A DNA stretch of 36,088 nt from a virus: the IMG/VR virus record IMGVR_UViG_3300017734_000027, positions 1-36,088 of that record; one strand, given 5' to 3'. The notes below the pieces were generated by a model. The model was not told the origin of the DNA, made no database searches, and saw only the letters and a list, made by a program, of their open reading frames with translations. Positions within the stretch are counted from its first letter, which is position 1; each line of letters opens with the position of its first letter. Of the stretch, positions 1,392 through 23,965 are shown piece after piece. The translations under genes were made by a program, and so were the position numbers.

Positions 1392-2954
1392 ATGGAATAT
1401 AATAACCCAAGTGAGATAGTAAAAAATCTGTCTTTCGGGACAGATGCAAGAGAAAAAATCATGCACGGGGTTGATAAACTAGCAAATGCAGTAAAGTCGA
1501 CCCTTGGTGCTTCCGGTAAATGCGTTATATATGAAGACGCTATGGGCCGGCCGGTCATTACAAAAGACGGTGTAACCGTTGCGGAAAGCGTAGTCTTATA
1601 TGATCCGGTCGAAAACATAGGCGCAACTTTAATTAAGGAAGCAGCTAGAAATACAGTAAAAGAAGCTGGTGACGGCACAACAACAGCGACAGTGTTAGCG
1701 CAAACATTGTTGCATTTAGCGTATGCTAAGATTGATTCTGACGGTATTCGTGATATTAAATTAGGTATATCATCAGGATTGGATAAAGTGACTGAGTACT
1801 TACAGGAGGAAGCATTACCGGTCGAAGGGGACATGTTAAGATCCGTAAGTGCTATCAGTTGCAATAATGATGAAGCTCTAGGCGATATAATATCGCAGGC
1901 ATATTCGAAAGTAGGCGGGGACGGTGTCGTTCTTATGGAAGAGTCTGAGACCCATGACACCTACGTTAAATTCGTAGAGGGCACTAGAATTAGTAGCGGA
2001 CTTAAATCGCCGCATTTTATGACAGATAAGGATAAAGGTAAGGCAGTGCTAGATAACCCGTACGTACTGATAGTAACATCGCCAATACCAAATATCCGTA
2101 AAATACAAAATGTATTGGAGTTTGTTATTAAAAAGAAAAGGAGTTTGTTAATCGTTGCAGGCGTAGAACAACAACCTATGGCAGCTTTATTAGCTAACAA
2201 GGTTAAAGGCAATATAAAAGTTAATGTTGTAGATCTGCCTGGATTCGGTCCAACTAAGCAAGATACAGTAGAAGATCTTGCGGTATTAACTGGAGCAAAA
2301 ATCATAAATGAAGAATTAGGTGATGATTTAGATCTAATTCAACCAGATGTTCTAGGCGAAGCAAAACAAGCTATAACTGATGAAACACACACTGTATTAC
2401 AAATATCTAATCAAGGTGAAGTAACAAAAGAGCGTGTTGATTTAGTTGAACAAAAAGTTAAAGATGAACAAAATCCGTTCTTTAAGAAGAAGCTACAAGA
2501 ACGTTTAGCTATGCTAAATGGACAAGTAGCAATGATTAAAGTCGGGGCAAATTCAAAAATAGAACTAAAAGAAAAGAAAGATAGGGTTGAAGATGCAATA
2601 TATGCTACAAAAGCAGCACTACAAGAGGGTATTGTTGCCGGTGGTGGAGTTGCTTTATTAGACGCACACTATAGTATCAAGCCAGAAAATGAAGGCGAAC
2701 GTATTTTATTAGAAGCTATAAAGTCACCTTATAAAACTATTTTAGATAATGCAAATTTAGAATACAAGGAAACAGGTAAAAAAGGAACAGGTCTTAACGT
2801 TATATGTAACAAACCTGTTAATATGATAGATGCTGGTATTATTGATCCTGTGCTTGTAACTAAAACGGCTCTTAAAAATGCAGTAAGTGTTGTCAACACT
2901 ATATTCTCTGCTGATTGTGTAATTAGTAATATTAGAATAAATGCAGGCAATTAA
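1392..2954 (+). CDS. groEL: Phage-encoded 60 kDa chaperonin GroEL (group I)
   Basis: ATP-driven protein-folding ring subunit, 520 residues against about 548 in E. coli. The equatorial ATP-binding residues are present: TKDG at 57-60, GDGTTT at 93-98 and the hydrolysis aspartate in RVEDA (Asp401), followed by EGIVAGGGVALL. The apical domain is recognisable (NIRKIQNVLEFVIKKKRSLL, VVDLPGFGPTKQD, TLTGAKI-like LTGAKI). Oddities: the phosphate-loop TLGP is TLGA (residues 37-40), GYLSPYF becomes GLKSPHF, the C-terminal equatorial segment is shortened, and the Gly-Gly-Met tail is absent (it ends INAGN). It overlaps the co-chaperonin gene by 14 bases, in the reverse of the usual bacterial groES-groEL order. 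It probably folds capsid, tail-fibre or other phage proteins; the substrate is not shown. The divergence makes recent capture from a host unlikely. Confidence 0.96.
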   Translation: MEYNNPSEIVKNLSFGTDAREKIMHGVDKLANAVKSTLGASGKCVIYEDAMGRPVITKDGVTVAESVVLYDPVENIGATLIKEAARNTVKEAGDGTTTATVLAQTLLHLAYAKIDSDGIRDIKLGISSGLDKVTEYLQEEALPVEGDMLRSVSAISCNNDEALGDIISQAYSKVGGDGVVLMEESETHDTYVKFVEGTRISSGLKSPHFMTDKDKGKAVLDNPYVLIVTSPIPNIRKIQNVLEFVIKKKRSLLIVAGVEQQPMAALLANKVKGNIKVNVVDLPGFGPTKQDTVEDLAVLTGAKIINEELGDDLDLIQPDVLGEAKQAITDETHTVLQISNQGEVTKERVDLVEQKVKDEQNPFFKKKLQERLAMLNGQVAMIKVGANSKIELKEKKDRVEDAIYATKAALQEGIVAGGGVALLDAHYSIKPENEGERILLEAIKSPYKTILDNANLEYKETGKKGTGLNVICNKPVNMIDAGIIDPVLVTKTALKNAVSVVNTIFSADCVISNIRINAGN

Positions 2955-3198
2955 TTATTACGTAGTCGTTGAAAAAATAAAGGAAGCACCGAAGAAAGTA
3001 GGTGGCTTAGAGCTTACAGAGGATCAAAATAAAGATGTAAGATATTTAAAAGGAAAAGTAATATCAGCAGGTCCAATGGCTGATGTACTAAAAAAAGACG
3101 ATATAGTTAGATACGACAAACAAGCAGGTCATGGTATTGAATGGAAAGATCAGCTATATTATGTTTTAAAGCTTGGCGATATAGTTTTAGTTGAATGA
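2941..3198 (+). CDS. groES: Phage-encoded 10 kDa co-chaperonin GroES
   Basis: The lid that caps the GroEL ring, 85 residues against about 97 in E. coli. It follows the family layout: an N-terminal strand (INYYVVVEKIKEAP), a mobile loop KKVGGLELTEDQ carrying the GG-hydrophobic-x-Leu contact, then KGKVISAGPMADVLKKDDIV and the C-terminal strands (YYVLKLGDIVLVE). The glycine-rich roof loop between the mobile loop and the core is reduced, which accounts for the shorter length. Its start lies inside the last codons of groEL (14-base overlap) and its stop overlaps the next ATG (ATGA), indicating translational coupling and a joint function with the neighbouring GroEL. Confidence comes from both the motif and the partner gene. 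Confidence 0.9.
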   Translation: MQAINYYVVVEKIKEAPKKVGGLELTEDQNKDVRYLKGKVISAGPMADVLKKDDIVRYDKQAGHGIEWKDQLYYVLKLGDIVLVE

Positions 3199-6245: not shown

Positions 6246-6644
6246 ATGTCTAAAATATTATCTAAACTATTTGGTAATGCTGGCGGTGTAGTTGTAGACA
6301 AGCTGGCTGGCGTTGCTGATAAGTTTATACGAACTAAAGATGAAAAAGCTGAGTTCGAAAAAGAAATGACGCAAATATTTATAGAAGCAGAAAAAGAAAT
6401 GCAAAAGAATGTTACCGAAAGATGGAAAGCAGACTTGGAGCATGGAAACTGGTTAACCCGTTCGGTTAGACCTTTAGTATTAGTATTCTTAATTGTAACT
6501 ACTGTATTAATGGTTTTTATTGATTCTGGTTCTATAGAATTTACAGTTGAAGAAAAGTGGACAGACTTACTTCAGCTAGTTTTAATAACTGTAATCGGCG
6601 CATATTTTGGCGGACGATCAGTCGAAAAAATAAGAAAAAAATAA
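6246..6644 (+). CDS. Holin of the GTA/3TM phage holin family
   Basis: Inner-membrane protein that permeabilises the cell at the end of infection, 132 residues. Residues 1-60 form a charged amphipathic helix region (FIRTKDEKAEFEKEM...). The signature RWKADLEHGNWLTRSVRP at 59-76 corresponds to the R-W-x-x-D...W-L-x-R-x-x-R-P pattern of the GTA_holin_3TM family. Two clear membrane segments follow, about residues 77-93 (LVLVFLIVTTVLMVFI) and 106-123 (LLQLVLITVIGAYFGG), and a basic tail ends it (SVEKIRKK). The family is about this length. No endolysin gene is evident beside it. Its stop overlaps the next ATG (TAATG). Confidence 0.85.
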   Translation: MSKILSKLFGNAGGVVVDKLAGVADKFIRTKDEKAEFEKEMTQIFIEAEKEMQKNVTERWKADLEHGNWLTRSVRPLVLVFLIVTTVLMVFIDSGSIEFTVEEKWTDLLQLVLITVIGAYFGGRSVEKIRKK

Positions 6645-13392: not shown

Positions 13393-16300
13393 ATGGCACA
13401 AATTAAAAAATTATCAACTGAATTACAAGTAAAAGATAAATTACTAGATACAAGTGGAGATGCGGGATCCAGCGGACAAATATTAAGTTCTACAGGTACT
13501 GGTACTAATTGGATTAATGCTGCAACATTTAGCGGCGGTACAGTTGCTAATGCAGCAACTTTTAGTAGTCTAGCAACTTTTAATAATGACATACTTGGTA
13601 ATGGCCATATTTATGGTAGGGCTGTAGATGGTCAAAGTTCTAGACTATATAGATTTGGCGGTTTATATTTAACTTGGGACAGTGATAGCTATGGTACTAA
13701 TGACTCCCATTCATTAAGATCCACATATGGCAATAACTTTACAGATAGTATTACATTAAACTCATATAATCACATAAGATTTAATATTGATAGTAATGAC
13801 AATAACTCTACAAGTTATTTTGAAGTTGGTGATGGCGTTACTGATACTAGTAATGTTATATTTAGATTAAACCAAGACGGTAATATAAACACAACAGGTA
13901 ATATAACTTTTGACAGCACAACAAACCATAGTTTAAATTCAGTAGTTAACTTAGTATTAAATGCTGATAGCGATTCTAATAGTAGCACTGCTTATAGAAA
14001 TATAATATTTAAGAGTAGAGGAACTGAAACAGGAAGAATAGACTATGAAGGTAATGCAACTTTTACAGGGAATGTTGATTATAAACCTTACCATATCCCA
14101 AGTACTGGCGGTACTGCAGGTTGGTATAAAATAGGTGCATTATCAAGCTTTGGGCAAGGTGGGAACGTGGCTGTTATAGAAATAGAAGGGCATCAAGGTT
14201 ATAACGCTGCAAATAATCAAGACTATTCTATTAAGCTATATTTTAAAACATCTAATGGAAATGGTGGCGGACCTAATAATCAAAATTTTAATTCTTGGTA
14301 CGAAAGAACAGGATTAAATTCATCATTTATTGAGCTGGTATGGAAAACTTCAGCTAGCAACGTATATGATTTATATATGTATATTCCAACACATTCTCAA
14401 TATGGTTATTATACAGTAAGAAAATCAACAGGTACATGGAGCCATTCAGGCACATCATCTAGTGATCCTGGCGCTAATAGTAGTACTATTTTAGAAGCAA
14501 CACAATTATTTAATATAGATGGACCTTTAACAGTTGAGAGTACTGCAACTTTTGCAGGTAATATACAAGTGGGAGGATTCGATGATGGTAGTAACTATAG
14601 CGCGACGATAGGTTGGAACGCTGTTGATAGTGAGGCTGTAGGTACTAAAAGATCTAATTTAACTTTTGAGACTGGTCAAACTTCTGTTAATCAAGAAGAT
14701 ATATACAAGTGGTCTATAGCAATGATTGCTGCACCTGCTACTGTTAGTGGAGAGGAATTTGGATCTGATTTAGCTTTTTTAAGAAGCACTAGAAGTAACA
14801 CATATACAGACGAACCTTCATTAACCTTAGGTAGAACAGGTAATGCAACTTTTGCAGGTAATGTAACTACTTCAACAGGTACTCTAACAATTAATGGCGG
14901 CACTGAAAATCTTTTAGGATCATTTGTTTCTACAGACAGTATTGCAGAAATAAGAATACAGGATAATAGTAAATATACGAGATTGCTAACTGTAGGCACT
15001 CAGTTTAAAATAATGCCAAATAATGGTTCTGAAACTTTAATATTAGACGGTAATAATGATTCAGCAACTTTTAAAGGCAGTTTAACTATGCCTAATTATA
15101 TTATTCACGATGGCGACTCAGATACTCAGTTTGGTTTTAGTGGTGCTAATACTTTTATAGTACACACAGGTGGTAGTGATAGATTTAGTATTACTGGTGA
15201 TGTTGGTGTAGTAGGAGCAACTGATTTCTTTATACCACAAGGTAGAAAATTATTATTAGATGGTGCTGGTGGTCATACTTATATAGAAGAAGAAAGTGAT
15301 AGTAATCTTAAATTTTACGTTGGAGGTACTGAAGCAATGCTCGTTTCAAATGCTGGTACACATTTTACCTCAACTTTAACTATACCAAGCTACATATACC
15401 ACGCTAGTGATCCTAGTACCGATACATATTTTGGATTTAGTGGTAACGACACTTTTGTAGTTTATACAGCAGCTGGTAAAGGAATAGAAATTGATTCAAA
15501 TAGAAATGTAGATTTTACAGGATCTGTAGGTGTTGGTGTCGCGGGAGGTTCTAATGCTAAATTAGAAGTCGTTTCTGCAACTGGTGAAGTTTTCAGAGCT
15601 GATGCAGCTAGCGGTGCTTTTAGAATAGTTGCAGACCAAACAGGAGTAAATACTCAAGGTGTTTTAGCTCACGCGGGTAACGCAACTTTTTCAGGTGATG
15701 TAACAATTAGTGGTGATTTACAAGTTAGTGGCGAAACAACAACAACTAATGTTGTAAATTTAGATGTATCAGATAATATAATAGGTTTAAATAGAGGATC
15801 AACATCAAATGCTAATGATTCAGGTTTAATAATTGAAAGAGGTAGTACAGGTAATAATGCTGCTTTCTTATGGGACGAAGGGGATGACGCTTTTGTATTT
15901 GGTACAACAACAGCAAACCCAGCAGCAACTGGTAATATAACTTATGCTTTTGCACCTATAAAAGCTGGTAGTGCAACTTTTTCAGGTACAGTAACAGCTG
16001 ACAATATTGTAAAAGCAACAAATGCTGGCACTGAAAACGCTATGCTTCAAGCAAGCGCTACAGGAACTGGTTATGCTGGTGTGTACTTAGACGCATCTAA
16101 TGGGGATTTTAGTGGTAATGATTATTTTTCTATTGTACAAAAAAATGATTTATCCGTTGAATTCGATGTAAGAACGAATGCTGGTAATACAATATTTAAA
16201 TCAAAAGGTGCTACCAACCTTACAATGGATGGTGCAAATTCAACTTTTTCAGGCGATGTATCATTAGGAACAGGTAAATCTATTTATTTAAGTGGAACTT

Positions 16301-19300
16301 CTGGATTAAGGTTATTACACGATGGCTCTAATGCTCATATAATTAATGGAGGTACTGGAGATTTAAACTTTAAAAATGACGCTTCTGATAAAGATATATA
16401 CTTTACTGGTACAGATGGAAGTACTGCTGTAACTGCTTTAACCTTAGATATGTCAGAGGGTGGTAACGCAACTTTTGCAGGAACAATAACCACAACAAGC
16501 ACAGCAACAGGGGCTATAACTCTTAATGGTGGTACTGGGGTATCAACTACAGGTGCTTTTATTTTAAGACAAAACGGTGATGGTTCGGGTAATGGTATGG
16601 CTATTACAAGTAGTCACGCTACTAGCCACAGAATATGGAAAGACGCTGATGGAGTTTTAAATATTGGCGGTAGTGGTAATCCAAATGCTTTTCAACAAGA
16701 TATTACAGGTAATGTAACTATTGAAGGTGATGGTACTTTTTCAGGTGATGTTGGAATAGGCACAATGCCATCAGGTGGTCCACAAGCTGCTTTACATGTT
16801 TCTGGACCGTTTAACACTAATGCACCCACAGGTAATGGTGTTTTAATGGGGTTATATAATAGCACGCATGGCTATATACAATTAAATGGTACCTCTGGTG
16901 GTTATATAGATTTTTCTGTTTCAGGTGTAGATCATAAAGGTAGAATATTATATGATAATACCTCTAATTATATGCGTTTTGATACTAATGGTAGTGAAAA
17001 ATTGCGCATTGCCTCTAATGGTAATGCAACTTTTACAGGCGCTGTTACAGCTACGGCTTTTGGATCTACAAATATAGTAACAAATAAAGTTGTTAAATTT
17101 GATGGAACTTATTTCAATGATTCTACTATTACAGATACTGGCTCAGCAATTACATTAGGCTCAGCAACAACAATTAGTAATAAACTTTTTGTTGATGGGG
17201 GCTATGGTGTTCAAAAAGGAACATATGCTGAAAGAACTTTTACATCAGGTTATTTTGCAAATGGAACATCTAATCTAGGTATACTTCTAGAATTACAAAA
17301 TGTTGCAATACAGGGTATGCTTAAAATAACTTTATCCGGCAGTTATTCTCATCAAAATATAACAGGTGAGCTTGAAGTTATAATACCTTTTGGTTTTAAT
17401 CCTGGCTCAGGAAATAGTAGTGGTATTTGGGGTAATGGCTCAAATAAAGCAATTAGAGCAACAGGTGGAATAGGCGATGCATTCACTGTCGGTGATTTAG
17501 CTTGGAGTCCTTCAACACAAAGACATTATATACCTATATATAAAATAAATTCGCATGGTAACTCTGTAAAAGTTAGAGTGCAATATTTTGGTGGTAGTGC
17601 GCAAGAAATTGAAAACTTTAATTTAACATCACCAGCTGCAGTAACAATACCAACAGAATATCAAACAAAACATAAATCAATAACACAAGGAGATTTAGAT
17701 TTAAAAGGTGACTTATATATACCAGGATATATAAATCATACTGGTGATTCTGGGACTGCAATTGGATTTGATGCTAACGATGTTATAAGATTAAAAACAG
17801 CTAGCTCAACAGCATTGCAAATTGATTCAAGTCAAAATGTAAAAGTTGTAGCTGGTAAGTTACAAATTAGTGGTGATAATGATCATTTTGTAGAACTTGT
17901 ACAAAGTGGTGATGGTGATTTTACTATTGATGCACCAGATGATCTTAGGTTAGACGCAGGAGGTGGTGATGTAGTATTAAGAGCAGGTGGTACTGAATAC
18001 GCTAGATTAACACATAACAATACAGGTTTAAATGTTACAACATCAGAATCGAATTCTAGTATATATTTATCACCAAATGGAACAGGTAATGTATATGCAA
18101 GTACAGATACTTTTATTATAACCGCAACAGAAGGTGAAATTGCAAAATTATTATTAAGAACAGACGAGGGCGATGACAATGGGGATGATTGGTACATACA
18201 AAACCACACCAATAATAATTTATTATTTACAAATGATAGAACAGGTTCACAATTAGCAAATCTAACATTAACCCCTCAAAGTCCTTCAAGTAGTGCAATA
18301 GCAACTTTTGCAGGTGATGTAGTAGTTGGAAATAGAATTCAAACAGCGGTTGGGAGCTCGGGAGCCCCAACATATACTTTTACTGGTAAAACTGATACTG
18401 GTATGTATGCTCGTGATCACAGTAGTAATGATAGATTAGCGTTTTCAGTAGATGGTTCGGAAAGAGGTTATTTTGATTCAAATGGTTTTCAAGTAGTAGG
18501 CAATGTGTATCTAAACTCAGGTAATTCGTTTAGAAACTATTCTGGTGTATGGGCTGCTACAACAGGTCAGACAGGTAATGGATTTACATTTTCTAATACA
18601 GCAGATAACAGCGGCGCTGTATTACTAAGTATTACATCTGACTCTTCTTCGGCTTCGGCTTCAGTTGCAACTTTTTCAGGTAAAGTTAGTGTTGGAGGTG
18701 GTGATATATCAACAGCACAAATGGCTTTAAAAGGTCAACAAAGTTTATTGAGTTTTATTAGAGGAACTTCTGGTGATGCTCAATTTTTTATGAGCTCTGA
18801 CTCATCAAAATTATACTTTACACATACAGATATACAAAGCACTAATCAAATTTTAACATTAAACTCAAGCGACGAATCTGCAACTTTTGCAGGTGATGTA
18901 TTATTAGGAGATGGACAAAAAGCTAAATTTGGTGATAACCCAGATCTACAAATATATCATAACGGATCACATAGTTTTATACAAGATGTAGGTGCTGGTG
19001 ATTTAAGATTATTAGCGAGCTCAATAAAATTACAAAATACTTCTGAATCTAATATATTAACATTAGCTAGTGATTTATCTGCAACTTTTGCAGGTTCTGT
19101 AACTGCTTCGGGAGATATTATTGCAAGTGGTCAAGCATCACCTACAATAAGTATATCAAGTAATACCGCGGGTACAGGTAAAACTTATTCTTTAATATCA
19201 AGATTTGATGGAGACTTTGAGATTCGAAATGGTAATACAAATTTTTTATTAATTGATGGTACAGCAAATAGCGCAACTTTTGCAGGTGTAGTAATAGCTC

Positions 19301-19896
19301 CATTAGGAAATAAAGGTGCAGCATCATATAGTTTTACTGGAGATACAAATACGGGAATGTTTTCAGATTCTGCTGATACACTGAAATTTGCAGCGGGAGG
19401 CAATACTATGCTCCATGTAAATGTAAATGCAGGAAAAGTAGGAGTTGCTGGAAGTTTAACAGTGTCTTCAGATATTGAAGATAGAGACATACCTTGTTTG
19501 TTTAATAGTAATTGGTATGACGGAACATCTAACGCGATATTACTAGTGCCATTTAATAGACATGATAATGAAGCAACAGTTTCTAGTAAATCATATTATC
19601 ATTACTTAACTATGCCCGCTGCTGGAAAAGTAACTAAAGTTGTTATGAGAACCGTAACAGGTAGCGCAAGTAGCGGCATGACAACACAGCTTTTCCTTTA
19701 TGTAAATGGTTCACAGGTGACTAGTAGCTCAGAGTTAACCATTTCAGGCAGTACAATAACATGGTCACCAACATCAAGTAATACATTCGCCGAAGGAGAT
19801 GAATTGAGTTTTGGTTACCAAAAAAATGCGTCAGGAAAAACATGGGATGGAGTTTCTATGGGAATTATAGTAGAATTAACAGATTACGATATATAA
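13393..19896 (+). CDS. Giant tail fibre protein 2 (2167 aa)
   Basis: The largest complete gene here. It starts MAQIKKLSTELQVKDKLL, anchor type A as in the 113-aa protein at 6644. The shaft is built from repeats of about 30-150 residues whose ends read NATFAGNV or SATFSGDV. Globular domains appear to interrupt it: about residues 230-380 (WYKIGALSSFGQGGNVAVIE...YYTVRKSTGTW), about 1270-1430 (TYAERTFTSGYFANGTSNLG...VRVQYFGGSAQEIE) and a C-terminal domain (about 2025-2167, DRDIPCLFNSNWYDG...). The shared LIIERG...LWDEGDDAFVF module lies at about 770-836. Internal direct DNA repeats make it prone to recombination. It is the probable main host-range fibre. A nucleotidyltransferase-like gene follows one base later. 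Confidence 0.85.
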   Translation: MAQIKKLSTELQVKDKLLDTSGDAGSSGQILSSTGTGTNWINAATFSGGTVANAATFSSLATFNNDILGNGHIYGRAVDGQSSRLYRFGGLYLTWDSDSYGTNDSHSLRSTYGNNFTDSITLNSYNHIRFNIDSNDNNSTSYFEVGDGVTDTSNVIFRLNQDGNINTTGNITFDSTTNHSLNSVVNLVLNADSDSNSSTAYRNIIFKSRGTETGRIDYEGNATFTGNVDYKPYHIPSTGGTAGWYKIGALSSFGQGGNVAVIEIEGHQGYNAANNQDYSIKLYFKTSNGNGGGPNNQNFNSWYERTGLNSSFIELVWKTSASNVYDLYMYIPTHSQYGYYTVRKSTGTWSHSGTSSSDPGANSSTILEATQLFNIDGPLTVESTATFAGNIQVGGFDDGSNYSATIGWNAVDSEAVGTKRSNLTFETGQTSVNQEDIYKWSIAMIAAPATVSGEEFGSDLAFLRSTRSNTYTDEPSLTLGRTGNATFAGNVTTSTGTLTINGGTENLLGSFVSTDSIAEIRIQDNSKYTRLLTVGTQFKIMPNNGSETLILDGNNDSATFKGSLTMPNYIIHDGDSDTQFGFSGANTFIVHTGGSDRFSITGDVGVVGATDFFIPQGRKLLLDGAGGHTYIEEESDSNLKFYVGGTEAMLVSNAGTHFTSTLTIPSYIYHASDPSTDTYFGFSGNDTFVVYTAAGKGIEIDSNRNVDFTGSVGVGVAGGSNAKLEVVSATGEVFRADAASGAFRIVADQTGVNTQGVLAHAGNATFSGDVTISGDLQVSGETTTTNVVNLDVSDNIIGLNRGSTSNANDSGLIIERGSTGNNAAFLWDEGDDAFVFGTTTANPAATGNITYAFAPIKAGSATFSGTVTADNIVKATNAGTENAMLQASATGTGYAGVYLDASNGDFSGNDYFSIVQKNDLSVEFDVRTNAGNTIFKSKGATNLTMDGANSTFSGDVSLGTGKSIYLSGTSGLRLLHDGSNAHIINGGTGDLNFKNDASDKDIYFTGTDGSTAVTALTLDMSEGGNATFAGTITTTSTATGAITLNGGTGVSTTGAFILRQNGDGSGNGMAITSSHATSHRIWKDADGVLNIGGSGNPNAFQQDITGNVTIEGDGTFSGDVGIGTMPSGGPQAALHVSGPFNTNAPTGNGVLMGLYNSTHGYIQLNGTSGGYIDFSVSGVDHKGRILYDNTSNYMRFDTNGSEKLRIASNGNATFTGAVTATAFGSTNIVTNKVVKFDGTYFNDSTITDTGSAITLGSATTISNKLFVDGGYGVQKGTYAERTFTSGYFANGTSNLGILLELQNVAIQGMLKITLSGSYSHQNITGELEVIIPFGFNPGSGNSSGIWGNGSNKAIRATGGIGDAFTVGDLAWSPSTQRHYIPIYKINSHGNSVKVRVQYFGGSAQEIENFNLTSPAAVTIPTEYQTKHKSITQGDLDLKGDLYIPGYINHTGDSGTAIGFDANDVIRLKTASSTALQIDSSQNVKVVAGKLQISGDNDHFVELVQSGDGDFTIDAPDDLRLDAGGGDVVLRAGGTEYARLTHNNTGLNVTTSESNSSIYLSPNGTGNVYASTDTFIITATEGEIAKLLLRTDEGDDNGDDWYIQNHTNNNLLFTNDRTGSQLANLTLTPQSPSSSAIATFAGDVVVGNRIQTAVGSSGAPTYTFTGKTDTGMYARDHSSNDRLAFSVDGSERGYFDSNGFQVVGNVYLNSGNSFRNYSGVWAATTGQTGNGFTFSNTADNSGAVLLSITSDSSSASASVATFSGKVSVGGGDISTAQMALKGQQSLLSFIRGTSGDAQFFMSSDSSKLYFTHTDIQSTNQILTLNSSDESATFAGDVLLGDGQKAKFGDNPDLQIYHNGSHSFIQDVGAGDLRLLASSIKLQNTSESNILTLASDLSATFAGSVTASGDIIASGQASPTISISSNTAGTGKTYSLISRFDGDFEIRNGNTNFLLIDGTANSATFAGVVIAPLGNKGAASYSFTGDTNTGMFSDSADTLKFAAGGNTMLHVNVNAGKVGVAGSLTVSSDIEDRDIPCLFNSNWYDGTSNAILLVPFNRHDNEATVSSKSYYHYLTMPAAGKVTKVVMRTVTGSASSGMTTQLFLYVNGSQVTSSSELTISGSTITWSPTSSNTFAEGDELSFGYQKNASGKTWDGVSMGIIVELTDYDI
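14056..19288 (+). repeat. Short interspersed direct repeats GCAACTTTT(G/T/A)CAGG inside the giant fibre gene
   Basis: At least 12 in-frame copies of GCAACTTTTnCAGG, most followed by T, occur at about 14056, 14545, 14845, 15682, 15973, 16468, 17026, 18301, 18667, 18880, 19081 and 19273, encoding ATF(A/S/T)G. The same codons are used almost every time (GCA ACT TTT) although synonymous choices exist. Related copies lie in the preceding fibre gene near 9217 and 9403. Several copies extend into GTGATGTA. Confidence 0.9.
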
Positions 19897-20725: not shown

Positions 20726-20921
20726 TATAGGTAGAGATTATAAAAATGATGCAATGCATTATTCCGTTGGACAAGAAGTTTACGGTGGCCATACAATAGA
20801 TTCAATTATTGAAGAAGATAATAAATTTTCTATTTTTATTAAAAAAAAGAACGAGGTTTTACCTTGGAAAGATTTTAATAAGAATATGGCTGTTGCAGTT
20901 GAATATAATTTAGAGTATTAA
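20703..20921 (+). CDS. Small protein of unknown function
   Basis: A 72-residue beta-rich protein. I chose the ATG at 20703 (MSLIRKISIGRDYKND); a TTG at 20694 in the same frame is a less likely start. The segment HYSVGQEVYGGHTIDSIIEEDN, then KFSIFIKKKNEVLPWKDFN and AVAVEYNLEY, reads like a small beta-barrel that I have seen as an uncharacterised phage protein. It overlaps the coiled-coil gene by 23 bases and ends by TAATG overlap with the next gene, so it is translationally coupled to both. Function unknown. Confidence 0.6.
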   Translation: MSLIRKISIGRDYKNDAMHYSVGQEVYGGHTIDSIIEEDNKFSIFIKKKNEVLPWKDFNKNMAVAVEYNLEY

Positions 20922-21508
20922 TGCGTAGTGTTTTTGACTTTATAATCAAACCAAAAAATAAAAGATACGACAATATAAAACAAATCGATGATAAAGAGCT
21001 GATATTAAATTCAGAAATATCTGATCATCGATATGTAAGTCGTGTTGGTGTAGTTTTATCAACTCCTAAACTAGAAAATACCGAAATTAAAATAGGTGAT
21101 GAAGTTATTGTACATCATAATGTTTTTAGAAGATGGTATGATGTTAGGGGTGTAGAACAAAATAGCAGAAGTTATTGGGAAGATAATAAATATTTTGTTA
21201 AGTCAGACCAAATATTTTTATATAAAAGAAATAACAAGTGGTATTCGCCAAAGGGCTATTGTTTTATTAAACCAATTGAATCAAATAATATATTATTAGA
21301 AAAAGAAGTTCCATTAAGGGGTATTATCAAATATGTTGATAAAGAGCTTAAAGATATAAATAAAGAAGATTTAGTTGGATTTACACCGAGCAGTGAATAT
21401 GAATTTATTGTTAACGGTGAAAGATTGTATAGAGTATTAACTAATTCAATATCTATTAAGTATGAACGTCAAGGAAACGAAAAAGAATATAATCCAAGCT
21501 GGACATAG
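20921..21508 (+). CDS. Protein with two apparent GroES-like domains, upstream of terminase
   Basis: A 195-residue protein that looks like a tandem of two co-chaperonin-like beta barrels. Domain 1 (about 38-103) has VGVVLSTPKLENTEIKIGDEVIVHHN, which parallels the GroES core (GEVLAVG...VKVGDIVIFN), and ends KSDQIFLYK. Domain 2 (about 110-186) has YCFIKPIESNNILLEKEVP, RGIIKYVDKELKDINKEDLVGF and a closing strand LYRVLTNSISIKYE, aligning by eye with the phage GroES (KGKVISAG...KKDDIVRY...YYVLKLGDIVLVE). I recall related proteins beside terminase genes in marine phages. It could be a second lid for the phage or host GroEL, or a structural use of the fold. The assignment rests on pattern only. Its end overlaps the small terminase gene by 47 bases. 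Confidence 0.5.
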   Translation: MRSVFDFIIKPKNKRYDNIKQIDDKELILNSEISDHRYVSRVGVVLSTPKLENTEIKIGDEVIVHHNVFRRWYDVRGVEQNSRSYWEDNKYFVKSDQIFLYKRNNKWYSPKGYCFIKPIESNNILLEKEVPLRGIIKYVDKELKDINKEDLVGFTPSSEYEFIVNGERLYRVLTNSISIKYERQGNEKEYNPSWT

Positions 21509-21737
21509 AGCGGTCGAAGAACTTATTAAGGTTGCCAAAGAAGCTATTGTAGATTCAGATGATGATATATCAGCTGATAGGTTAAAAAATGCAGCCGCTA
21601 CTAAAAAGCTAGCTATATTTGATGCTTTTGAAATACTTAATCGAATACAAGAAGAGGAAAATATGTTAAATGATAAACCTAAGGAAATTAAAAAACAAAA
21701 TGTTTTTAAAGGGTTTGCTGAAGGAAGATCTAAGTAA
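21462..21737 (+). CDS. Probable small terminase subunit
   Basis: A 91-residue all-helical protein immediately before the large terminase. It has a leading helix (KKNIIQAGHRAVEELIKVAKEAI), an acidic turn (DSDDDISADRLKN), and a second helix (AAATKKLAIFDAFEILNRIQEEE), then a basic tail (KKQNVFKGFAEGRSK). The small terminase is expected to recognise the packaging site and form an oligomeric ring; the position, size and helical content fit, and I recall similar proteins before TerL in marine phages. No classical helix-turn-helix is certain. It overlaps the upstream gene by 47 bases in another frame and the TerL ATG by one base (TAATG). Confidence 0.6.
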   Translation: MNVKETKKNIIQAGHRAVEELIKVAKEAIVDSDDDISADRLKNAAATKKLAIFDAFEILNRIQEEENMLNDKPKEIKKQNVFKGFAEGRSK

Positions 21738-23965
21738 TGTATAAACAATCATTATATAGCGTTATAGAGCCTATAAAAATCAATACGATTAAAAGGCTTA
21801 ATAAAGCAAAAAAGTGGAAATACGGCTATAATAAGGAGCACGACGTTGTCGTTATAAGTAAAACGGGAATGATTGGTGAGATATATGAGATACAAAATCT
21901 TAAAATAGCTTTACCAAAACAAAAAAATATATATAAATTTGAAAATAACAAGTGGGGAAAGTTTGAATATCCAAAACCTTTAGAAAGAATTAAAAATGTT
22001 TTAGATTTTAAACAATATCCACAAGAATTTAAAGAAAAGTGGTATGATTACATCGATAATGAGTTTATCCGTAGGGAAGAAGGTTTTTGGTTTTATAACA
22101 AAGACGTTCCTACTTACATTAGTGGTACTCATTACATGTACTTGCAGTGGTCTAAGATTGACGTCGGGGCACCAGAGTTTAGGGAGTCAAATAGATTATT
22201 CTTTATTTTCTGGGAAGCTTGTAAGGCAGATTCACGATCCTATGGGATGTGTTACCTTAAGAACAGGCGTTCCGGGTTTTCTTTCATGGCCTCAGGAGAG
22301 GTGGTTAACTTGGCAACCATATCAAGTGACAGTAGGTATGGTATATTATCCAAGTCCGGTGCTGATGCAAAGAAGATGTTCACAGATAAGGTGGTACCCA
22401 TATCAGTTAATTATCCCTTCTTTTTCAAACCGACCCAGGACGGAATGGACCGTCCAAAGACCGAACTTGCCTACCGTGTCCCCGCAACCAAGTACACCCG
22501 TCGTAAACTTACCGCCGCCCCCACCGCAGCCGATGAAACCCTGGAGGATCTCAAGGGACTTGACACGACCATCGATTGGAAGAACACCGGTGACAACGCC
22601 TATGATGGGGAGAAACTCAAACTCCTCGTACATGATGAATCGGGGAAGTGGGAAAAGCCCAACAACATCCTCAATAACTGGAGGGTCACGAAAACCACAT
22701 TAAGATTAGGAAGTAGAATAATCGGAAAATGCATGATGGGCTCAACAAGCAACTCATCAGATAAGGGAGGCGAAAACTTTAAAAAATTATACCATGACTC
22801 AGATGTTACCAAAAGAAACCGCAATGGACAGACTCGCTCAGGACTCTATTCTTTGTTCATTCCTATGGAATGGAATTTCGAAGGATTCATTGATTCTTAT
22901 GGAATACCTGTATTCGAAACACCGAAAAAAGAAATTAAGGATTTCCACGGATCAATTATTGATGTTGGAGTTATTAGCCACTGGGAAAATGAAGTTGAAG
23001 GGTTAAAAGGCGACCAAGATGCTTTAAATGAATTTTATAGACAGTTTCCAAGAACTGAAGAACATGCCTTTAGAGACGAAACAAAAAATAGTATATTTAA
23101 TTTAGCAAAAATTTACGAGCAAATTGATTACAATGATGAAGTCGCAAATCTGTCACAAGTTACCGTCGGCAGCTTTACGTGGAAAAATGGAATTAAAGAC
23201 ACAAAAGTCCAGTTTACGCCAAATCCTAACGGAAGGTTTAAAGTCAGCTGGGTTCCGAGTGTAAAATTACAAAATAATATTATAATTAAAAATGGTATAA
23301 AATATCCAGGCAACGAGCATATGGGTGCTTTTGGATGTGATAGTTATGATATATCAGGAACAACCGATGGTCAAGGCTCTAAAGGAGCTTTACATGGGTT
23401 AACTAAATTTAGTATGGAAAATGCACCTGCTAATATGTTTTTTCTTGAATATATAGCTAGGCCACAAACGGCAGAAATGTTTTTTGAAGATGTATTAATG
23501 TCTTTAATATTTTATGGTATGCCAATATTGGCGGAAAATAATAAACCAAGATTATTATATTATTTAAAAAGAAGAGGTTATAGAGGCTATTCAATGAATA
23601 GACCAGACAAAGCAAGAAATAAATTATCAGTAACAGAAAAAGAAATAGGTGGTATACCAAACTCAAGTGAGGATATAAGACAAGCCCACGCTGCTGCTAT
23701 TGAAACATATATTAATGATTATGTTGGTATTTTATCAGATGGCGAATATGGTGATTTATATTTTAACAGAACACTTAACGACTGGGCAAAGTTTGACATA
23801 AATAAAAGAACAGCGTTCGATGCTGCAATTAGTTCTGGTTTAGCTATTATGGCTTGTAATAAAAATAAATATAAACCACACGCTGAAAGAATAAAACAAA
23901 AAGTAAATATTAATTTTTCAAAATACGAAAATAAAGGAAGTTTATCAAAAATAATAAAACAATAA
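21737..23965 (+). CDS. terL: Terminase large subunit (DNA-packaging ATPase and nuclease)
   Basis: The DNA-packaging motor, 742 residues. N-terminal ATPase: a degenerate Walker A, LKNRRSGFSF, around residues 174-183; Walker B KLLVHDE with Asp300-Glu301; coupling motif GST at 335-337. C-terminal RNase H-like nuclease: first catalytic acid Asp535 in AFGCDSYDI, a second acid likely in FFLEYIARPQTAEMFFED, and a third near DINKRTAFDAAISSG. The lead-in YNKDVPTYISGTHYMYLQW is typical of a Bacteroidota/marine phage terminase family that I recall. Odd: about 22060-22700, strongest at 22441-22680 (54% GC by hand count), uses GCC, ACC, CTC, AAG and CGT codons, unlike the AT-rich rest. The reading frame is intact across it. 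It is flanked directly by TerS and the portal, which are transcribed with it. Confidence 0.95.
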   Translation: MYKQSLYSVIEPIKINTIKRLNKAKKWKYGYNKEHDVVVISKTGMIGEIYEIQNLKIALPKQKNIYKFENNKWGKFEYPKPLERIKNVLDFKQYPQEFKEKWYDYIDNEFIRREEGFWFYNKDVPTYISGTHYMYLQWSKIDVGAPEFRESNRLFFIFWEACKADSRSYGMCYLKNRRSGFSFMASGEVVNLATISSDSRYGILSKSGADAKKMFTDKVVPISVNYPFFFKPTQDGMDRPKTELAYRVPATKYTRRKLTAAPTAADETLEDLKGLDTTIDWKNTGDNAYDGEKLKLLVHDESGKWEKPNNILNNWRVTKTTLRLGSRIIGKCMMGSTSNSSDKGGENFKKLYHDSDVTKRNRNGQTRSGLYSLFIPMEWNFEGFIDSYGIPVFETPKKEIKDFHGSIIDVGVISHWENEVEGLKGDQDALNEFYRQFPRTEEHAFRDETKNSIFNLAKIYEQIDYNDEVANLSQVTVGSFTWKNGIKDTKVQFTPNPNGRFKVSWVPSVKLQNNIIIKNGIKYPGNEHMGAFGCDSYDISGTTDGQGSKGALHGLTKFSMENAPANMFFLEYIARPQTAEMFFEDVLMSLIFYGMPILAENNKPRLLYYLKRRGYRGYSMNRPDKARNKLSVTEKEIGGIPNSSEDIRQAHAAAIETYINDYVGILSDGEYGDLYFNRTLNDWAKFDINKRTAFDAAISSGLAIMACNKNKYKPHAERIKQKVNINFSKYENKGSLSKIIKQ

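Follow-up and report, generated by a model that had tools for sequence, protein, structure and literature searches.

The window analysed here is a 36,088-nucleotide stretch of viral DNA (IMG/VR record IMGVR_UViG_3300017734_000027, positions 1 to 36,088), and its terminase large subunit gene, terL, holds a second open reading frame (ORF) wholly nested in the +1 frame. The features at the locus are listed below.

21737 to 23965, plus strand: terL, coding for an intact terminase large subunit of 742 aa (matches PHROG 6681 'terminase large subunit' at E 2.8e-163; translation without internal stops)
21959 to 22696, plus strand: segment acquired from an L009/L014/L065-like terL into an L001-like terL (best single-segment fit, with identical limits for the three donors)
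22059 to 22703, plus strand: nested ORF, 214 aa, ATG at 22059 and TAA at 22701-22703, in the terL +1 frame; open run beyond chance
22060 to 22700, plus strand: GC3 island of terL, with the GC peak at 22421-22660
22074 to 22145, plus strand: nested residues 6-29, predicted N-terminal helix, probably membrane-spanning (AlphaFold2; hydropathy above that of synonymous redraws)
22137 to 22151, plus strand: nested residues 27-31, CTCSG motif at the helix end (present in 81 of the 83 nested proteins whose start is complete)
22152 to 22700, plus strand: nested residues 32-214, a basic tail rich in Ser, Thr, Pro and Arg, fast-evolving and predicted to be disordered

An alternative in-frame ATG at 22044 appears in the six-frame listing and would extend the nested product to 219 aa (22044-22703). 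The portal and other head genes neighbour terL, and a separate holin-family gene lies at 6246-6644. The window also carries a GroEL-like gene (PHROG 5725), an adjacent GroES-like gene (PHROG 3188) and a second GroES-family gene (PHROG 13932), at 1392-3198 and 20921-21508, the last of the three two ORFs upstream of terL. Also upstream of terL, a 2167-aa ORF (13393-19896) has no PHROG match at E 0.001.

An earlier note on this DNA had described an intact terminase gene interrupted in its composition by a GC-rich, codon-shifted island that takes in Asp300-Glu301, and much of this description holds. The reading frame of TerL is unbroken, the GC counts given at the time are reproduced (0.542 at 22441-22680 and 0.283 at 23461-23520), and Asp300-Glu301, which we take to be the Walker B pair, does lie inside the island in the TerL sequence. 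GC amounts to 0.466 over 22060-22700 and 0.338 over the whole window, and in 240-base windows moved in steps of 20 the island contains the GC maximum of the entire 36 kb (0.55 vs 0.34 window-wide). The codon shift is likewise real, while the abrupt edge described for it exists at the 3′ side only: at the 5′ side GC3 climbs as a ramp, the five consecutive blocks into which residues 108-322 were divided having 0.48, 0.45, 0.49, 0.60 and 0.67, before a fall to 0.37 and then 0.15-0.29. In carriers of the nested frame GC3 is back to 0.14 at residues 320-330, directly after the nested stop. What had been missed is that the edges of the island coincide with the limits of the +1-frame ORF.

This frame is open beyond chance. 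When each of the 27 genes of the window was compared with 300 synonymous shuffles (135 frames), the 232-codon open +1 run of terL reached a z score of 9.8, the next highest frame having 2.9. The same frame recurs among relatives, taken as the best 80 TerL matches kept from IMG/VR (75-86% identity), which together with the window make 81 rows. All 81 have an unbroken terL, and in 32 of them, the full carriers, the open +1 frame extends as far as residue 322 or 324 and encodes 203-221 aa; nine (L002, L004, L011, L033, L036, L037, L039, L048 and L056) have a shorter nested ORF of 116-181 aa, and in the remaining 40 no nested ORF here reaches 100 aa. Synonymous shuffles in which the TerL protein and the codon usage of the island were both held fixed contained on average 3.6-7.0 stops where none is observed, and the stop-free share was at most 0.4% for each of the 32 carriers (500 shuffles each), so the frame was not opened by high GC alone. 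A GC3 of at least 0.46 at residues 235-322 is found in 31 rows, all of them full carriers, and the thirty-second carrier, L013, keeps its frame open with a GC3 of only 0.20 at residues 235-280.

The nested frame is more narrowly distributed than the gene that contains it, the full ORF being present in 32 of the 81 rows and in none of five annotated relatives that were examined out of 87 records matching terL, with terL intact throughout both sets. One of these five is an uncultured circular genome (MW202828) and the other four are cultured phages; the annotated relatives are Elemovirus, Pachyviridae and Pervagoviridae records, mostly from seawater. The cultured flavobacterial phages elemoE, phi19:3, phi38:1 and Gundel_1 have a homologous TerL (31-44% identity), but their longest +1 run spans 39-87 codons and they lack the nested gene. 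Nor did any of 50,697 annotated phage records give a match to the nested protein of the window at E up to 1. In viral contigs, by contrast, the nested ORF is common: a search with the nested proteins confirmed at least 589 stretches, in which one contig may count twice (under two patterns). Among the matches listed we kept 80 loci, of which 79 received new locus ids (11 on contigs of the TerL-relative set), and all 79 match inside terL in the +1 frame. Contigs of metagenome-assembled genomes (MAGs) gave 14 loci with varied 3′ ends, several of their frames being shorter or closed; at the site the open run is only 42 codons long in L178 and L179 and 107 in L170. In L105, L152 and L158 the nested frame has stops or is truncated. 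In two of the MAG loci, L170 and L178, terL matches in more than one frame, through either a seemingly broken terL or contig errors. For the comparisons below, a joint set of 140 terL sequences was formed, leaving out identical, contained or short (<400 codons) terL, with 86 carriers, 50 non-carriers and four sequences (L105, L114, L134 and L152) in neither class.

It could be asked whether the nested frame is entered by ribosomal frameshifting, so that the N-terminus of TerL is fused to the nested protein. Ahead of the ATG the +1 frame is indeed open, from residue 89 onwards in the window and likewise in other carriers. In half of the full carriers (16 of 32), however, a stop interrupts the +1 frame around the ATG, at residues 100-111. 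Of the 86 carriers of the joint set, 83 have an ATG between codons -12 and +6 relative to the site, and the contigs of the other three begin inside the gene. The start codon is by itself weak evidence, since 38 of the 50 non-carriers also have an ATG near the site. On balance we regard entry by frameshifting as improbable, and a nested gene translated from its own ATG as the better account of the frame.

At the amino-acid level, selection on the nested protein is evident in its hydrophobic segment and weak or absent elsewhere. At terL residues 123-137, a segment picked after per-column conservation had been inspected, third-base conservation is 0.88 in 11 carriers (<82% identical) vs 0.59 in 12 non-carriers, and 6 of 10 third-base columns are invariant in the former vs 0 of 10 in the latter. 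The conserved third bases spell the nested motif LxLLxLxxCTCSG, those for CTCSG being fixed in all 11 carrier representatives and mixed in the 12 non-carriers. CTCS stands at the site in 32 of 32 carriers, the commonest form among non-carriers being CIYN (19 of 40); CTCSG is also found in eight of the nine partial nested proteins, and at least one non-carrier, L059, reads CTCSG too. In 42 close, non-overlapping carrier pairs the terL-synonymous changes in this segment number 44 vs 85.9 expected, whereas 23 non-carrier pairs show 85 vs 83.1. Its hydropathy averages 2.57 in the 86 carriers vs 1.19 in the 50 non-carriers, and the median share of stop-free synonymous redraws (300) that are equally hydrophobic is 0.000. 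Across the island as a whole, +1-conservative changes in carriers exceed expectation (363 vs 294, the bar on stops slightly raising the expected number), with 216.5 vs 208 in non-carriers and 546 vs 512 in the carriers' flank as controls. Outside the hydrophobic segment, third-base conservation is no higher in carriers than in non-carriers, and at residues 160-215 it is lower (0.61 vs 0.74); changes at residues 270-320 are above expectation (399 vs 351). Most of the nested protein thus evolves freely. An OLGenie-like ratio over 120 pairs, in which near-saturation of the synonymous sites leaves little information, gave a dNN/dNS of 0.84 (0.67-1.04), not below the values of the terL flanks (0.62 and 0.70). 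A count of new stops in carriers (1 vs 59.8 expected) was dropped as evidence, being circular because carriers were chosen for an open frame.

The base composition of the island fits the nested protein. In this register each third base of a terL codon is the second base of a nested codon. There C or G avoids stops and, in the tail, specifies Ser, Thr, Pro, Ala, Arg and Gly, giving rise to the GC ramp. C at third positions accounts for 0.27-0.49 per ten-residue block of residues 270-320 in carriers and 0.07-0.20 in non-carriers. The membrane segment keeps T instead, and at residues 120-130, where the nested protein is hydrophobic, T at third positions is 0.63 in carriers vs 0.48 in non-carriers and A is 0.09 vs 0.33. 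Local selection on codon use, one of the causes suggested before, was right as to the effect, the cause being a second coding frame.

A segment of terL has also moved between phages by recombination. The flank of the window's terL is closest to that of a non-carrier, L001 (85% DNA identity), whereas its island is 93% identical to that of L014, the flank of which is only 75% identical; the island's identity at codon positions 1+2 is 97% with L014 and 91% with L001. Inside 21959-22696 donor-like states occupy 149 of 171 informative sites with L014 as donor, 158 of 188 with L009 and 153 of 174 with L065, as opposed to 81 of 329, 78 of 336 and 84 of 337 outside. Separate phylogenies for the island and the remainder, which the earlier note had suggested, are discordant. 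In the tree of island DNA all 32 full carriers form one clade (support 98, several rows having a deviating base composition), while the flank tree of 81 rows requires 14 changes of full-carrier state and a single carrier clade is rejected (p-AU 0.0014). Island trees made from codon positions 1+2 and from the TerL protein give 6 and 10 changes rather than 1, so that, together with the deviating composition, shared codon constraint may supply part of the single-clade signal. One origin of the nested gene with repeated exchange is the likely history. Eight of the nine relatives with a partial ORF adjoin full carriers in the island DNA tree, and the nine partial forms may be steps of growth or of decay.

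Such mosaicism, with breakpoints near the edges of the island (about 21959 and 22696), is what one would expect if the island had been recombined in from a phage of higher GC, the +1 frame being open as a by-product of that high GC. The recombination part of this proposal stands and the GC-rich donor finds no support: among the best 80 relatives none is GC-rich outside residues 108-322, where GC3 does not exceed 0.33 and ranges over 0.14-0.32 in the 32 carriers. Moreover, codon usage like that of the island still predicts several stops in the +1 frame, L013 holds the frame open at low GC3, and the hydrophobic segment keeps T against the GC trend. An import of this kind is in our judgement slightly less credible still than frameshifting. 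A DNA packaging signal or an RNA structure constraining third bases within terL is very improbable. The island is bounded, and packaging signals often lie near terminase genes; yet the segment of the window folds no better than dinucleotide shuffles (z 0.03, one sequence and 20 shuffles), the mid-island third bases are less conserved in carriers, unlike a sequence signal, and the stop-free frame would be left unexplained. Least credible of all is an assembly chimera of two terL genes, for although assemblers stumble in the island, where the contigs of 10 of the 79 loci end or begin (L105, L107, L109, L111, L114, L120, L130, L134, L146 and L148), the same frame is found open again and again in contigs from many data sets, MAG contigs included, and a separate contig, L083, encodes a nested protein 94% identical to that of the window. 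L100 also stops inside the island, though its contig is longer, and other contigs end elsewhere in terL. The breaks in the island look as if assemblers fail where co-occurring phages share terL alleles.

Taken together, we consider that the island is very probably the footprint of an overprinted gene, at 22059-22703, for a predicted single-pass membrane protein. In its 214-aa product a single hydrophobic helix, closed by CTCSG, would follow a short basic N-terminal part and precede a long tail that is basic and disordered. AlphaFold2, applied to 72 of 83 nested proteins (<93% identity), gave a single helix at residues 6-29 with a mean pLDDT of 44 for the whole protein; the mean is 58 for residues 1-10, 85 for 11-20 and 79 for 21-30, and it is below 50 in 32-151 and 161-212. 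In 81 of the 83 proteins CSG lies within 17 consecutive residues that carry no charge. Net charge is +1.83 before the hydrophobic core and +0.23 after it, which under the positive-inside rule for membrane protein orientation suggests that the tail lies outside. The basic charge of the nested protein is partly automatic, its mean of +19.3 in carriers comparing with +14.7 for the read-through of non-carriers, whereas Ser, Thr, Pro and Gly together make up 36% of the nested protein vs 16% of that read-through. A TTSSTTG-like stretch is conserved near the end of the tail.

Similarity searches add little to this picture. Neither Pfam nor PHROG gives a match to the nested protein of the window at E 0.001, and among 30 aligned nested proteins (the near-identical L017 and L025 being omitted) there were weak matches only, to one PADLOC model in one protein (E 0.014) and to one PHROG in two (E 0.05). 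The best sequence match in the PDB, titin (E 0.064), was taken as chance. A fold search with the low-confidence model of the nested protein returned no match at E up to 0.001, and a PROSITE-style lipobox pattern was found near the N-terminus in none of the 83 proteins.

As to its role, the nested protein would be translated from its own ATG on the terL message and hence, beside the portal and other head genes, late in infection; more speculatively, it may reside in the inner membrane of the host with the tail outside and act on the envelope. We favour two possible functions, each with clearly less than even confidence: the protein may be an accessory to lysis or, a shade less plausibly, a superinfection-exclusion factor. 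In either case the gene is probably accessory, given that non-carriers have an intact terL without the nested ORF.

Small membrane proteins from embedded frames have a precedent in the outer-membrane spanins of the Rz1 type, whose gene is wholly embedded in the +1 frame of another phage gene and whose product is small and attached to the membrane. The nested ORF resembles them in lying wholly in a +1 frame and in its predicted small membrane-attached product, but it sits in terL rather than in an inner-membrane spanin gene and its products show no lipobox by the pattern used. Overprinted viral genes are described as novel frames in older conserved genes, with a restricted distribution, unusual codon usage and a disorder-rich, fast-evolving product (PMC8227390), and the nested ORF shares all the traits so described, differing in that it is found in a phage terL and is wholly nested over 645 nt. 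The median length of +1 overlaps in virus reference genomes is 14 nt (PMC8903798). Among overlapping phage ORFs, olg1 and gene 10 of Pseudomonas phage Fc02 have exclusion activity, and olg2, the +1 partner of olg1, has no detected product (PMC9936078). These Fc02 genes resemble the nested ORF in being overlapping phage ORFs, and differ, as described there, in not being located in terL. The portions of the open-licence literature on terminases and overlapping phage genes that were covered contained no gene nested in terL. Overprinting itself is thus already known, and the nested family is new as far as the searched libraries tell.

In tailed dsDNA phages long nested genes are easily missed, as gene callers tend to suppress them, and an anomaly of GC or codon usage within a gene can signal a second frame. 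We propose, tentatively and with somewhat less than even confidence, that the nested ORF is a de novo gene which arose in the gene of the packaging motor, exists in several lengths and moves between phages as an allele of terL. Swaps of the ATPase segment alone would then deliver or remove a late membrane effector. terL serves as a hallmark gene in phage taxonomy, and its trees within this group call for caution, as two histories are mixed in them. Carriers, partial carriers and non-carriers occur among close kin, which opens both the birth and the cost of an overprinted gene to testing. If the proposal is true, terL would be a vehicle for an accessory gene, and these phages would provide a natural series showing an overprinted gene in the course of growing.
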